NCBI GenBank assembly: GCA_021604525.1
Contig: BQJD01000041.1
Span: 1 to 32,904 of the forward strand
Direction of reading: 5' to 3'
DNA length: 32,904 bases
Source of the DNA: a marine bacterium B5-7
GTDB taxonomy: Bacteria > Pseudomonadota > Gammaproteobacteria > Arenicellales > CAJQKF01
Below the pieces are notes generated by a model. That model did no database searches, had not been told where the DNA came from, and saw nothing but the letters and a program-made list of their open reading frames with translations. The translations under genes were made by a program, and so were the position numbers. Each line of letters opens with the position of its first letter. Position 1 is the first letter of the stretch. Shown here piece by piece: positions 8,785 through 18,218 of this stretch.

Positions 8785-9404
8785 GAATCGCTTTCGAGAC
8801 GAATGATGCGTTGTTCCAGTCGATCGACATCGGCAACGATTTCGTCGACTGCGTCAGCAAAATCCTCAACCGATCCACGACTTGCCGCCAGGCGGATTTC
8901 TTCACGTAGATAATCCCCGCCATCGGTGAAAGTTTTCTCGCTTGCCCGTTTGCGCACGCGTCCGAGTGTGTCGATAGAACTTTCGATCCGCCAGGTCGGG
9001 GCATCGCCTATCAGCGGCGACAGACGTTGCTGCCAATTCGGGCGGTAGTATCGCAGCAAATCAGAGAATGCCTGAACCAGCGTGGCATCGCCCTCCACTT
9101 GCAGCGATCCGTCGTTGAATGCCGAACGGTCAGACGGGTTCATGGCGGCACGGGCAAAGCTGAATGGTCCGCCACATACTTCGGCATCCACCGTGCCCGG
9201 GTGATCGGTGGCGAGGTGTATGCCATCGTCGCTAAACGTGACAAACACCGAATGATCGTCCTTCAGCCACGAGTCGATACAAATCGTTTTACCTATAAGC
9301 GGTTCGAGTCTGGCAGGGCTGTCGGGGTCCTGGCGCAGCACCCGGTTAAGGCCGCTTTCAATAACTCCCAGCGATAATGGGTTCATCACACGTGTCTGGC
9401 TCAT
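8781..9404 (-). CDS. ubiJ: UbiJ, SCP2-domain ubiquinone accessory factor
   Basis: A 207-residue protein from ATG 9404, 13 bp after the ubiE stop; the longer frame upstream would overlap ubiE and is not needed. The first part is an SCP2-like lipid-binding domain (IDSWLKDDHSVFVTF, then a FNDGSLQVEGDATLVQAFSD segment). The C-terminus from about 165 is a charged coiled coil (EDFADAVDEIVADVDRLEQR). UbiJ with UbiK organises the cytosolic Ubi complex and presents the lipid intermediate. Placement between ubiE and ubiB is the standard gammaproteobacterial order and secures the assignment of a sequence that is weakly conserved. An alternative start at 9386 (MNPLSLGV) is possible. Confidence 0.9.
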   Translation of the reverse strand: MSQTRVMNPLSLGVIESGLNRVLRQDPDSPARLEPLIGKTICIDSWLKDDHSVFVTFSDDGIHLATDHPGTVDAEVCGGPFSFARAAMNPSDRSAFNDGSLQVEGDATLVQAFSDLLRYYRPNWQQRLSPLIGDAPTWRIESSIDTLGRVRKRASEKTFTDGGDYLREEIRLAASRGSVEDFADAVDEIVADVDRLEQRIIRLESDS

Positions 9405-10589: not shown

Positions 10590-11639
<1,050 letters not shown>

Positions 11640-11652
11640 TCAGGGCCATTGT

Positions 11653-13116
11653 TTAAGTACGCTTTCTGGTGGCTTTCTTTGCAGTTGATTTTTTAGCGGT
11701 CTTTTTAGCGGTCTTTTTAGTGGCTGTTTTCCTGGCTACTTTGCTGGCCGCGACCTTTTTTGAAGCAGCCTTCTTGGCGGTCGACTTCTTTTTCGTCGAC
11801 TTTTTCGCGGCAATCTTTTTAGTCACCCGCTTTTTGCTCACGGCTTTCCTGGCTATAGCTTTTTTCGCCGTAGCTTTCTTGGCTGCTGTTTTCCTGGCTA
11901 CTTTGCTGGCTGTGGTCTTCTTGGCCGTTACTTTCCTGGTTGCCGCTTTTTTACTGGCGGACTTTTTAGCCGTCACCTTTTTAGCCGTCGACTTCTTCTT
12001 CGTCGCTTTTTTTGCGGCAATCTTTTTGGAACTCCGCTTTTTTGTCACGGTTTTCTTTGCAGCAGTCTTTTTTACCGTGGTCTTTTTGGTTGTCACTTTC
12101 CTGGTTGCCGCTTTTTTACTGGCGGACTTTTTAACCGTGGCCTTTTTAGCAGCGACTTTTTTCGAACCGGCCTTTTTAGCCGTGGATTTTTTGACAGCCG
12201 GTTCTAATGCGATATCGCCTGACTTGGTCTCGGCGATGTTTTTCTTGGCAGACGCTGGCCTCCTGGCAGCCTTTCTGCGTCGGCCTGGTTTGGATTCATG
12301 GCTGTCTGCGAGATTAATTTCACTCGCCTGGCGTGGCTGCATGCGAGTGGTACGGGACTCTGTACCGCTTGATTCGCGAACGATTTTGCCACCAATGATA
12401 TGCGTATGGGTTGCCACACCCTCTACCGAGCCGTGAATGGAGATAACCTTGTTCTCAAGTGGGCGTATCTCGGTATCGATCATTTCACATAACTTCTCGA
12501 ATACCTCGAGTGGCGGGTTATCTGCGTTCAGGGTTCGCAACTTGTGCTGGGCGCGGTAGTACTGCATCAGCAGTTCGCTTTCCTGCTGGTAGGCTTTAAG
12601 CTGGGCGCGCGCGGCCGTCTCGTTGTCATCCTCACGTTGTTTGAGTTTGCGGCCCTGACAGATGTCGCATCGACCGCGAACTTGTGGCGGATTCGTATAT
12701 ATATTGAATATTGCGCCACAGTCATCGCAATTGCGGCGTCCGGTGATTCGCTGTAACAGCGAATCGGCAGTGACATCGAAATTGATCACCATTTGAATGG
12801 GGCGCGTCACCCAGCCGAGCCGGGTGTCGAGCTCCTGCGCCTGGGGAATGTTGCGCGGGAAGCCGTCAAGAATAAAGCCGCGGCGGGTATCTGTCTTTAG
12901 TACACGCTCGGATACCATTTCAATCACCAACGCGTCGGGTACGAGACCGCCCTCATTCATGATGCGCTCGGCTTTCTTGCCAGCCTCGCTGCCTTCTTCA
13001 ACCGCGGCACGCAGAATATCCCCCGTGGATATCTGCGGAACCTTATACAATTCCACAAGTTTGCGTGCTTGGGTACCTTTACCGGAGCCTGGCGCTCCCA
13101 GTAGTATGATGCGCAT
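11653..13116 (-). CDS. adk: Adenylate kinase with zinc LID fused to a histone H1-like Lys/Ala-rich tail
   Basis: A 487-residue protein. Residues 1 to about 215 form a complete adenylate kinase (ATP + AMP to 2 ADP): P-loop GAPGSGKG at 7-14, DGFPRN at 84-89, and a LID with Cys130, Cys133, Cys150 and Cys153 for zinc. Residues 216-275 are a linker containing VISIHGSVEGVATHTHIIGG. From about 278 to the end there are some 210 residues of KKxxAKK-type repeats with almost no acidic residues, like H1-like bacterial proteins and the AlgP tail. E. coli Adk stops at 214 residues. The ATG at 13116 is chosen because MRIILLGAPGSGKG is the family N-terminus; the frame extends 27 codons further upstream with no support. 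An internal Met259 could start a free tail. The tail DNA is low complexity, so its length may vary between strains. Confidence 0.93.
   Translation of the reverse strand: MRIILLGAPGSGKGTQARKLVELYKVPQISTGDILRAAVEEGSEAGKKAERIMNEGGLVPDALVIEMVSERVLKTDTRRGFILDGFPRNIPQAQELDTRLGWVTRPIQMVINFDVTADSLLQRITGRRNCDDCGAIFNIYTNPPQVRGRCDICQGRKLKQREDDNETAARAQLKAYQQESELLMQYYRAQHKLRTLNADNPPLEVFEKLCEMIDTEIRPLENKVISIHGSVEGVATHTHIIGGKIVRESSGTESRTTRMQPRQASEINLADSHESKPGRRRKAARRPASAKKNIAETKSGDIALEPAVKKSTAKKAGSKKVAAKKATVKKSASKKAATRKVTTKKTTVKKTAAKKTVTKKRSSKKIAAKKATKKKSTAKKVTAKKSASKKAATRKVTAKKTTASKVARKTAAKKATAKKAIARKAVSKKRVTKKIAAKKSTKKKSTAKKAASKKVAASKVARKTATKKTAKKTAKKSTAKKATRKRT
11723..12133. repeat. Long-period direct repeats in the adk tail coding sequence
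   Basis: A 38-base stretch at 11931-11968 recurs exactly at 12096-12133 (165 bp apart), and a 26-base stretch at 11723-11748 recurs exactly at 11885-11910 (162 bp apart). Both periods are whole codons, so the KKxxAKK tail grew by in-frame duplication of blocks of about 54-55 codons, on top of a short lysine-doublet rhythm. Such repeats are prone to copy-number change and to assembly collapse. Confidence 0.85.
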
Positions 13117-15114: not shown

Positions 15115-15738
15115 CTAACTATTGATGGCGTGCCGCATCTTGCGCGCGGCAAGACCGACGAATAAGTAAAAAAAGCCGTTGGTGATAAGTTCGAAAGCCA
15201 CCAGGATGCCGATGACGGAGAGGCCGGATACCGGCCACTCGGCGTAAATAACCGCACCCAGTCCTATGGAGATCAGGCCGGCGATGATCAGCCATACCCA
15301 GCCGGGCTGACCTTTCATCTGAAATGCCATGATAATGCGCAGCACGCCGACAGCGACGACAAGACCGGCCAGCATGGCAGTAAAGGCCAGAGACGACAAT
15401 GCCGGATTATTAACGATGACGCCTGCTGCGACGATGTACAACAGACCGATGAGGATATGCGCGACGCGGCCTTTCCAGCCGGCACATTTGAAGGCGTTGA
15501 AAATCTGTGCGGCACCGCCGATGGCGAGCAGTACGCCGATGAACATGACCGTGGTCAGAGTCATCATGACCGGCATGCCGAGCGCAATGATTCCGAGTAC
15601 GATAAAGACCATGCCAAGAGCAAGAATCCAGCCCCAGTTCTTGCCAAGATCACCAAAAATCTTTTTAAGATCAGGTCCAAGTGACCCAGGAAAGTTCGCG
15701 CCTTGCAGTTGCGCTTCAGACCTGTTCGTATCCGTCAT
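15115..15738 (-). CDS. HdeD-like (DUF308) membrane protein
   Basis: A 207-residue inner-membrane protein. After a 30-residue hydrophilic N-terminus come six hydrophobic helices (for example ILALGMVFIVLGIIALGMP, MFIGVLLAIGGAAQIFNAF, LSVIGILVAFELITNGFFY) in the three-hairpin layout of the HdeD/DUF308 family. E. coli HdeD supports acid resistance at high cell density; the role here is unknown and the name is by family only. The start is certain: a strong GGAGGA ribosome binding site lies 6 bp before the ATG. It is monocistronic and divergent from the cytochrome gene. Confidence 0.88.
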   Translation of the reverse strand: MTDTNRSEAQLQGANFPGSLGPDLKKIFGDLGKNWGWILALGMVFIVLGIIALGMPVMMTLTTVMFIGVLLAIGGAAQIFNAFKCAGWKGRVAHILIGLLYIVAAGVIVNNPALSSLAFTAMLAGLVVAVGVLRIIMAFQMKGQPGWVWLIIAGLISIGLGAVIYAEWPVSGLSVIGILVAFELITNGFFYLFVGLAARKMRHAINS

Positions 15739-15887: not shown

Positions 15888-18218
15888 ATGAACTTTCGTA
15901 CTCTTATGTTCCGGGCTGTACTTGTCCTGGTGACAGTGATGTCGTTCGCGAATATCACGCAAGCGGCAGATGATTCAGAGATCATTACCGATGACGATAT
16001 ACCACGAACATATGTCGGTCGCGCCGTGTGTAGTGGATGTCATGCGGATGTAAATGAAGCCTATGCTGGCTCGCATCATGACCTCGCCATGCAACATGTC
16101 AGTGAATCCAGTGTGCTTGGGGATTTCGATAACGTTACTTACAAACACCTTGGCGAGACGTTCAACTTTTATCGCAACGGCGACCGATTCATGGTACGCA
16201 CTGCCGGTTTGGACGGTGAACCGGAAGATTTTGAAATCTCCTTCACTTTCGGTGTCTATCCGCTGCAACAATACCTGGTGAAATTTCCCGGTGGCCGGTT
16301 GCAGGCGCTCAGTGTTGCTTTCGACACCCGCGCCAGGGACGCCGGCGGTCAGCGCTGGTTTCATCTTAACCCTGACGATGCCGTGCCACCCGGCGATGTA
16401 CTTCACTGGACTGGTCCGAATCTCAACTGGAATTACATGTGCGCGGACTGCCACTCCACAGCCTATCGCAAGAACTACGATGCGGCGACACAAAGCTACG
16501 CATCGAGCTATGCCGAGATCGATGTGTCCTGCGAGGCCTGTCACGGACCGGCATCAAGGCATGTTGAATGGGCTAATAATGATGGAGACGCGATCGCCGA
16601 GTATGGCGTCGATGATGATTACAGCCTTGCTGTACGATTCAATGAACGCACGGGCGTAAGCTGGTCGAGCGATCCTGAAACCGGCACGGTGAGTCGCAGT
16701 ACGCCACGCACATCGAGCCGCGAGATTGACGTCTGTGCACGATGTCATAGCCGCCGCAGTCAGCTCACCGATCAAACCGATCCGGGCGATCCGTTTATGG
16801 ACGGTTACAGGCCATCGCTGTTAACGGAGGGTCTGTACCATGCTGACGGACAGATCCAGGACGAGGTCTACGTTTGGGGTTCGTTCCTGCAAAGCAAAAT
16901 GTACATGGCCGGCGTCACCTGCAGCGACTGCCACGACCCGCATACTGCCGACCTCAGGCGGCCCGGTGATGCCACCTGTCTTGCCTGTCATGCCGGCGAT
17001 CGTTACGCCACTTCGGCCCATCACTTTCATCCACAGGAATCGCTCGGCGCACGATGTGTCGAGTGTCACATGCCATCGAAGGTCTACATGCAGGTCGATG
17101 CCAGACACGATCACAGTATACGCATACCGCGCCCCGATCTGTCGGTTACGCTCGGCACACCAAACGCCTGTAATAACTGCCATGAGGATCAGGACGCCAA
17201 GTGGGCCGCCGATACGCTTAAGCAATGGTATGGCAGTACCCCCCGAGGCCTGCAAGGCTATGCGCGTGCATTAACCGCCGGTCGGTCACGCGCAAGCAAC
17301 GGTAGTCGCATGCTTAAATCAATCGTCGCCTCCAGTGGCCAGCCGGTAATCGCCCGGGCCAGCGCCTTGACCTATCTTGGTGCCTATCCTGATCGCGATA
17401 CGTTTGCGATGATCCAGATGAATTTGAATGCCGACGATGCGCTGATGCGGCTTGCCGCGGTCGATGCGCTCGCACCGCTGGAACCACGCGCCCGGGTTTT
17501 AGCGATCGCCTCATTATGGGACGATCTCAAGGCTGTTCGCATCGCTGCCGCAAGGACGCTGGCTGGATATTCGGGAGAAGGTTTGAACAGCGCCCAGCTC
17601 GAGCGCCTTAATCGTGGCATTGAGGAATATATCGAGGTACAGGAATTCAACGCGGAACGCCCGGAAGCGCAATTAAACCTCGCCGATCTGTATTTTGATT
17701 CAGGGCGCATGGCTGAGGCCGACGCGGCCTATATGAAGGCACTCGAACTCGGCCCGCAGTTTGTTCCAGGCTACGTGAATTATGCGCAGATGCTGGCGCA
17801 ACAGGATCGCGAAATGGAGGCCGAGGCCGTGCTTCGCGAAGGTGTTGAAAAGGTGCCCGGTGAAGCCGCGATCCATCATTCCCTCGGCCTGTCGTTAATA
17901 CGCCAGCAACGACTGGATGACGCCCTGGAGCCGTTAGCCACCGCGCATCAGCTCGAACCGCAAACAATCCGCTTCGGATATATCTATGCGGTTGCGCTTA
18001 ACGCATCGGGAAGGGTCGATGACGCCCTTAAGGTGTTAGAACCGATCCATGCGATGTCACCCGACAATATTGACGTGCTGGTTGCCTTGATTACCTTTAA
18101 TCGTGACGCCGGTCGATTCAAAACTGCGCTCGACCATGCACGCAAGCTTAAGCAATTGATACCTGATGATGCCGGCGTCGATCAACTCATCGTGGATCTG
18201 GAACGCGCCGCATCGTGA
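15888..18218 (+). CDS. Exported octahaem cytochrome c with C-terminal TPR repeats
   Basis: A 776-residue protein with a signal peptide (1-26, ending ITQA). It has eight CxxCH haem sites at about 48, 185, 215, 283, 345, 364, 390 and 428 (CSGCH, CADCH, CEACH, CARCH, CSDCH, CLACH, CVECH, CNNCH). Residues 450-590 look helical and HEAT-like, and 600-776 contain TPR units (AQLNLADLYFDSGRMAEADA and similar). The order of sites recalls the cytochrome c554 / octahaem reductase superfamily. CxxCK, the catalytic haem signature of NrfA, is absent, so nitrite reductase is unlikely. A periplasmic electron-transfer or protein-scaffold role is inferred. It stands alone with no maturation genes beside it. A GTCAC-N5-GTGAC dyad at 15835-15849 lies just upstream. 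Confidence 0.92.
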   Translation: MNFRTLMFRAVLVLVTVMSFANITQAADDSEIITDDDIPRTYVGRAVCSGCHADVNEAYAGSHHDLAMQHVSESSVLGDFDNVTYKHLGETFNFYRNGDRFMVRTAGLDGEPEDFEISFTFGVYPLQQYLVKFPGGRLQALSVAFDTRARDAGGQRWFHLNPDDAVPPGDVLHWTGPNLNWNYMCADCHSTAYRKNYDAATQSYASSYAEIDVSCEACHGPASRHVEWANNDGDAIAEYGVDDDYSLAVRFNERTGVSWSSDPETGTVSRSTPRTSSREIDVCARCHSRRSQLTDQTDPGDPFMDGYRPSLLTEGLYHADGQIQDEVYVWGSFLQSKMYMAGVTCSDCHDPHTADLRRPGDATCLACHAGDRYATSAHHFHPQESLGARCVECHMPSKVYMQVDARHDHSIRIPRPDLSVTLGTPNACNNCHEDQDAKWAADTLKQWYGSTPRGLQGYARALTAGRSRASNGSRMLKSIVASSGQPVIARASALTYLGAYPDRDTFAMIQMNLNADDALMRLAAVDALAPLEPRARVLAIASLWDDLKAVRIAAARTLAGYSGEGLNSAQLERLNRGIEEYIEVQEFNAERPEAQLNLADLYFDSGRMAEADAAYMKALELGPQFVPGYVNYAQMLAQQDREMEAEAVLREGVEKVPGEAAIHHSLGLSLIRQQRLDDALEPLATAHQLEPQTIRFGYIYAVALNASGRVDDALKVLEPIHAMSPDNIDVLVALITFNRDAGRFKTALDHARKLKQLIPDDAGVDQLIVDLERAAS

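Follow-up and report, generated by a model that had tools for sequence, protein, structure and literature searches.

An adenylate kinase with a lysine/alanine-rich, histone H1-like tail in a marine gammaproteobacterium and its relatives

Why would an enzyme that interconverts adenine nucleotides carry a long basic tail of the histone H1-like kind? One gene in the window raises this question; the window is the whole stretch of DNA analysed here (32,904 nucleotides of contig BQJD01000041.1 from the marine bacterium B5-7, order Arenicellales, class Gammaproteobacteria). The gene lies at 11653..13116 on the minus strand and runs from ATG to TAA, encoding 487 amino acids followed by a stop. An earlier reading of the sequence alone had given these coordinates and a single continuous frame, and it was right on both.

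A frame or assembly artefact was ruled out because other genomes carry the same fusion, free of stops and in many cases at the corresponding locus. Two genomes of the same genus aligned to residues 1–485 and 1–486 of the window protein (59% and 61% identity), again without stops. When the nucleotides of the tail were shuffled 20,000 times, the frame never stayed open. An antisense frame (11669-12436, plus strand) was read as a by-product of the Lys and Ala codons on the other strand, and terminator-like sites on the plus strand within the tail were set aside (5 found, 4.6 expected). No RNA family reached its gathering score between positions 9000 and 16500.

Residues 1–215 (12472..13116, minus strand) form an adenylate kinase (Adk) according to the Pfam and NCBIfam profiles. 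The Pfam family ADK matched residues 5–190 (6.4e-48) and ADK_lid residues 127–163 (3.4e-12). The scores were 230 bits for TIGR01351 (cut-off 168) and 252.8 bits for NF001380 (cut-off 251). The predicted fold resembles solved adenylate kinases, with a pLDDT of ~92 over the kinase. The P-loop GAPGSGKGT occupies residues 7–15 (13072..13098, minus strand). The lid at residues 127–163 (12628..12738, minus strand) is of the Cys4, zinc type, with cysteines at 130, 133, 150 and 153. In sequence and structure matches, kinase and lid are like those of the Bacillus-type Cys4-lid adenylate kinases, but these have no tail, and 5g3y has arginine where residue 172 of the window protein is Gln.

This Gln is encoded at 12601..12603 (minus strand) and replaces a near-invariant arginine: arginine was present at the equivalent position in 196 of 200 Adks compared (75 of 75 untailed, 121 of 125 tailed). 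The residues K13, R36, R88, R123 and R161 are kept in the window protein. From the residue comparison, residue 172 is the counterpart of E. coli R167 (our own numbering), a residue important for catalysis. R167 is listed among the inhibitor-contacting residues of the E. coli structure 1ake in a passage of PMC4922591. A second adk gene is present on another contig of the window's genome (4.41 Mb, 119 contigs). Its product has 224 residues, no lid cysteines, no tail and all six of the substrate-binding residues that were checked. As a substrate-contacting arginine is replaced by Gln, the tailed kinase of the window's species may be weak; it exists there beside an intact untailed Adk. The sequence-only reading had called the adenylate kinase complete; this holds for length and fold, whereas Gln at position 172 puts its activity in doubt, as far as residues can tell. 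Neither the missing arginine nor the second adk gene was visible to that reading.

After the kinase, the frame continues into a linker (residues 216–278; 12283..12471, minus strand) and a Lys/Ala-rich, H1-like tail (residues 279–487; 11656..12282, minus strand), so that the in-frame linker and long KKxxAKK tail described earlier are indeed present. The landmarks are EIRPLE at 216, THIIGGKIVR at 238–247 (window 12376-12405), Met259, the start of the basic stretch at 279 and KKxxAKK repeats from about 308. The net charge was +83 over the 273 residues after residue 214. The histone H1-like family HC2 (PF07382) matched residues 307–444 with 86.5 bits (cut-off 40), and the best tail stretch in the genome search reached 59.7 bits. 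Two stricter NCBIfam H1-like models, scored over the whole protein, stayed below their cut-offs (NF038052, 49.2 of 135 bits; NF038053, 58.7 of 80 bits). Composition and KKxxAKK pattern are nevertheless those of the bacterial H1-like proteins covered by PF07382, NF038052 and NF038053, which typically stand alone. A phage source for the tail was rejected, as no PHROGs family matched at E≤0.01.

The linker motif, written as TxIxGGxIxR, was found in 32 of 53 tailed proteins of the order and in 0 of 62 from the rest of the class, and was therefore ruled out as a universal signature. The strands predicted at this motif had a pLDDT of about 50 and the long helix predicted for the tail rested on 9 sequences; neither was used. 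A second product starting at Met259 had been proposed and found little support: the 18 bases before this ATG contained no GGAG, AGGA or GAGG, and 5 of the 53 tailed relatives of the order had an internal start preceded by one of these runs in the first 90 codons past the kinase. This is a weak test: a Shine-Dalgarno run of this kind is also missing before the main start of the window gene and is present before only 21 of the 53 main starts in these relatives.

Is the tail particular to this species? An Adk was counted as tailed when at least 50 residues followed the kinase and at least 12% of them were Lys or Arg; some tails were cut by contig ends or contained runs of N. Within the order, 109 genomes were searched, 98 had an Adk-type match and 83 were read at sequence level. 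At least 53 of the 109 genomes, from eight families, have a tailed Adk. All 53 came from the first 63 genomes read, which had been chosen for their long frames or high scores. The remaining ten comprised three in which a contig end interrupts the gene or tail, five (family f11) with a short Adk without a tail, one (G075) with a short Adk without lid cysteines and one (G006) with a remnant of 29 residues after the kinase. A check set of 20 genomes (19 of families f2 and f10, one of f8) contained neither tailed nor Cys4-lid Adks. The G006 protein (L102) has a Cys4 lid and the changes R36S and R88H, sits on a very long branch of the tree and is accompanied by a second Adk in its genome. It is probably a decaying copy.

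For the class survey, 370 genomes at least 90% complete were searched at E≤1e-20, with at most 8 candidates scored per genome. The best matches were listed. All 67 listed matches with open frames of at least 300 residues were read, together with the best 86 matches and a minority of the listed short-frame matches below those. Among the 67 long frames, 61 were tailed, and these belonged to 61 genomes of 31 other families. The best 86 matches comprised 71 with a Cys4 lid (40 tailed, 31 untailed) and 15 without (0 tailed). Absence of the tail from all relatives, named in the sequence-only reading as a refutation, was thus not what was found: the tail is widespread in the order and in the listed genomes of the class. 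In 33 of the 61 tailed class genomes, no other Adk was found among the scored candidates, while 28 had one or two more. Hence, a tailed Adk can act as the housekeeping enzyme. The tail is dispensable for the enzyme, however, since it is missing in 31 of the 71 Cys4-lid Adks and in the five f11 genomes. Two genomes (G085 and G039; loci L095 and L098) have two adenylate-kinase-type matches in tandem plus a tailed Adk elsewhere in the genome; in G039, the tandem lies on contig C138 at about 40.3 and 41.1 kb.

Tail and neighbour counts were based on 115 distinct tailed loci of the class. Fifteen duplicated or truncated loci (L002, L025, L076, L091, L093, L100, L103, L105 and L157–L163) were dropped from the tree and from the tail, residue and neighbour counts, and L232–L251 were outside the tree and residue counts. 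In the window, a divergent phosphofructokinase gene (PF00365; 13742..15016, plus strand), presumably of the pyrophosphate-dependent type (pfp), lies upstream of the gene, and hemB (delta-aminolevulinic acid dehydratase; 10590..11600, minus strand) lies downstream. Both are frequent neighbours in relatives: pfp was divergent upstream at 73 of the 115 loci, hemB was downstream in the same direction at 68, both were present at 43, at least one at 98 and neither at 17. Some of these 17 lack both partly because the stretches were short, but about 8.6 kb could be read in eight of them, so the neighbourhood truly differs in some families. Measured from the start of adk, the hemB match begins at 657–729 bases in the 13 untailed relatives whose stretch reaches hemB, except for one partial match at 863, and at 946–1657 bases in 68 tailed relatives. 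The space between adk and hemB is filled by the tail. Farther along the window, a large multihaem c-type cytochrome with TPR repeats (15888-18218, plus strand; families Cytochrome_C554, Cytochrome_C7 and TPR) adjoins a gene for a DUF308 protein (15115-15738, minus strand).

The same architecture was found outside the class. Of 348 Pseudomonadota genomes, 10 had a protein above the cut-off of NF010381 (PRK13808); all 10 belong to one family (f210) that we take to be Alphaproteobacteria. Like the window protein, these proteins consist of an Adk followed by a Lys/Ala-rich, H1-like tail, which was present in 10 of 10 (70–95 residues, median 77, net charge +34). They differ in having a lid without cysteines and a shorter tail, and the window protein scored 144.7 bits against their cut-off of 426. 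In the tree, these Adks form a separate clade next to two untailed Adks from a different family that is also outside the class, and their tail is probably a separate gain. PRK13808 is named in part of PMC8263066 for a weak match of a fungal protein, which has no bearing on the window Adk. The tailed architecture is implicit in the NF010381 model. A search of the literature by title and abstract openings, which covered few subscription papers or preprints, found no adenylate kinase with an H1-like tail.

Is the tail maintained, or did it merely grow? The 95 complete tails of the class had a median length of 171 residues and a median net charge of +57 (range 3 to 113), with 31% Lys and 21% Ala. 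The HC2 profile matched the Adk tail in 2 of 8 genomes known to have a tailed Adk, and the window tail as query did so in 2 of these 8, once at E=0.32. The likeness to HC2 is largely one of composition and not of common sequence. Tail letters diverge fast, and charge and composition are maintained. In the tail, pN was smaller than pS in 12 of 12 chosen pairs (some of which share a sequence). Its dN/dS was 0.08–0.57 in ten of them; in the two with saturated dS, pN was about half of pS. For the kinase part of the 12 pairs, dN/dS was 0.03–0.20. Seven further pairs also had pN smaller than pS in the tail (7 of 7). Hence, the tail appears to be translated and constrained, and in the tested pairs it is, by these ratios, under purifying selection weaker than that on the kinase.

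These ratios bear on the idea of tolerated low-complexity growth, in which KKxA repeats were expanded by slippage and have little function. The window tail does contain an imperfect duplication of 148 nt (11750..11897 and 11957..12104, minus strand; 72% identical, spacing 207). Moreover, complete tails range from 77 to 329 residues, and presence of the tail is patchy: the whole tree requires its state to change at least 10 times. That number of changes fits one old gain with losses and several gains within the class alike. The constraint seen in all 12 chosen pairs, a charge kept while the sequence diverges, mixed Lys codons in the window tail (AAA 43, AAG 32) and the probable separate gain in another class all argue against mere growth, which we consider very unlikely.

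The missing arginine of the window copy raised a different idea: the role of the tail would be DNA packing, with the kinase serving mainly as its folded carrier and being close to a pseudokinase in the window's species. Besides Gln at 172, this is suggested by the distribution of deviations at positions 161 or 172, which occurred in 8 of 125 tailed Adks (two being Arg to Lys) and in 0 of 75 untailed ones; all eight belong to families f1 and f8 and have retained the tail. Within the order, 4 of the 9 genomes that have a second Adk held a deviant, against 4 of the 44 that lack one (Fisher p=0.02). An arginine loss owing to the second Adk is thus suggestive within the order, but it was unsupported across the class, where the link vanished (4 of 37 with a second Adk, 4 of 77 without, p=0.43). 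Both arginines are intact in 117 of the 125 tailed Adks. In three deviant f8 copies the kinase has evolved faster (pN/pS 0.49–0.77), and this looks more like decay. We regard the carrier role as quite unlikely. To judge from residues, tailed Adks in their common form look to be active, tethered kinases, with the window copy as a less typical member.

If the tail is a tether, what would it hold on to? Other proteins of the window's genome offer a comparison. Its topoisomerase I (TopA) has a Lys/Ala-rich C-terminal tail (HC2 23.8 bits, below cut-off). At this locus (L180, contig C2, 1486-3132, minus strand), the Lys/Ala tail is followed by a short neutral-acidic end. An HU-family protein (PF00216) with a Lys-rich N-terminal end adjoins a phasin-like protein on contig C4 (L230); the latter has a Lys/Arg-rich N-terminal half and matched Phasin_2 at E=0.0023 and HC2 at E=0.0044, both below cut-off. 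We take this pair to be reminiscent of granule tethers of the PhaF/PhaM type. There is also a stand-alone Lys/Ala frame of 125 residues without a Pfam family match. With the window tail as query, basic segments of two of these proteins other than TopA were weakly matched (E=0.02 and 0.65). Judged by these admittedly weak matches, the proteins that carry such segments here are of the kind that meets DNA. In relatives, stand-alone Lys/Ala H1-like frames of ~160 residues occur alongside a tailed Adk (L224 in genome G007, L181 in genome G139). In G139, another frame (L177) continues into long EKAAAEKA repeats followed by a KKAAPKK stretch; it reads to us like an RND-type transporter, and such repeats would presumably be unusual for a membrane pump.

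An enzyme with a comparable end is known. Part of PMC7398561 describes the C-terminal lysine repeats of actinobacterial TopA, likened to histone H1, as stabilising the enzyme on DNA. This essential enzyme resembles the window Adk in its C-terminal lysine repeats. TopA acts on DNA, however, and DNA affinity is obviously useful to it, whereas a nucleotide kinase has no such use. The type of tail is known and the enzyme is known; their combination is unexpected and widespread.

With a net charge above +80, such a chain would bind polyanions. Our preferred reading, which we hold with about even confidence, is that a Cys4-lid Adk with a long, probably disordered Lys/Ala tail is electrostatically tethered to nucleic acid, most likely the nucleoid. 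The tail would hold the kinase on the nucleoid, and there it would interconvert AMP, ADP and ATP where polymerases, ligases and synthetases use them. The sequence-only reading had proposed a tether to nucleic acid or polyphosphate and a placement at the nucleoid. A tether of either sort fits the anatomy best, and the tail is widespread; we infer the binding to DNA or RNA, the placement on the nucleoid and the relevance to nucleotide supply.

Affinity for polyanions need not mean DNA. The tail could bind tRNA or rRNA and bring the kinase close to the aminoacyl-tRNA synthetases, which release AMP and are a major source of it. Extensions rich in lysine bind both RNA and DNA. A valine--tRNA ligase model also gave a weak match that stayed well under its cut-off (24.3 bits, E=6.4e-06). 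The similar segments in the window's genome, however, sit on DNA-type and granule-type proteins, and we give a tether to RNA or the ribosome little probability.

The tail could also keep the Adk on polyphosphate (polyP) granules, where it would use or supply ADP or AMP for polyphosphate kinases. E. coli work has described an Adk-Ppk pair as a polyP-AMP phosphotransferase. A further point in favour comes from AlgP of Pseudomonas. In passages of PMC9239181, AlgP is an H1-like protein with a KPAA-repeat domain of net charge +55 that sits on polyP granules and without which these are not evenly spaced, and AlgP and PhaF are thought to tether granules to the nucleoid; in this respect the two are also precedents for a nucleic-acid tether. 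AlgP and PhaF are like the window Adk in joining a Lys/Ala-rich, disordered H1-like domain to another domain. They differ in their Pro-rich KPAA repeats, which are absent from the window tail (Pro is 1.8% of stretch 215–487), and the other domain of AlgP is helical and not an enzyme. Against the polyP tether, no polyphosphate gene was found among the seven neighbouring window genes checked, and we consider it unlikely. As polyP granules arise in the nucleoid region (again from passages of PMC9239181), the polyphosphate and nucleoid readings overlap. We think that a nucleic-acid tether is the most likely and a polyphosphate tether the next.

A broader picture can be offered tentatively, as a possibility that we would not bet on. 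Chromatin-tethered Adks may be widespread and convergent: the sole, housekeeping Adk of many Gammaproteobacteria and, through a separate gain, an Adk of a family in another class would be held on the chromosome by an H1-like tail and would buffer or sense the adenylate energy charge on the nucleoid. In some lineages, perhaps that of the window, the kinase would be on its way to becoming a nucleoid protein, with a second, soluble Adk in the same genome.

Tails of the H1-like kind have been described for a DNA enzyme, for nucleoid proteins and for proteins of storage granules. Here, such a tail is on the enzyme that balances AMP, ADP and ATP, which is often the only Adk found in the genome. For annotators, this gives a nameable architecture for proteins that are now filed simply as 'adenylate kinase'. 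The question raised is whether central energy metabolism is located on the bacterial chromosome. Should that be so, the premise that the adenylate pool is well mixed would have to be re-examined for a large part of the Gammaproteobacteria.
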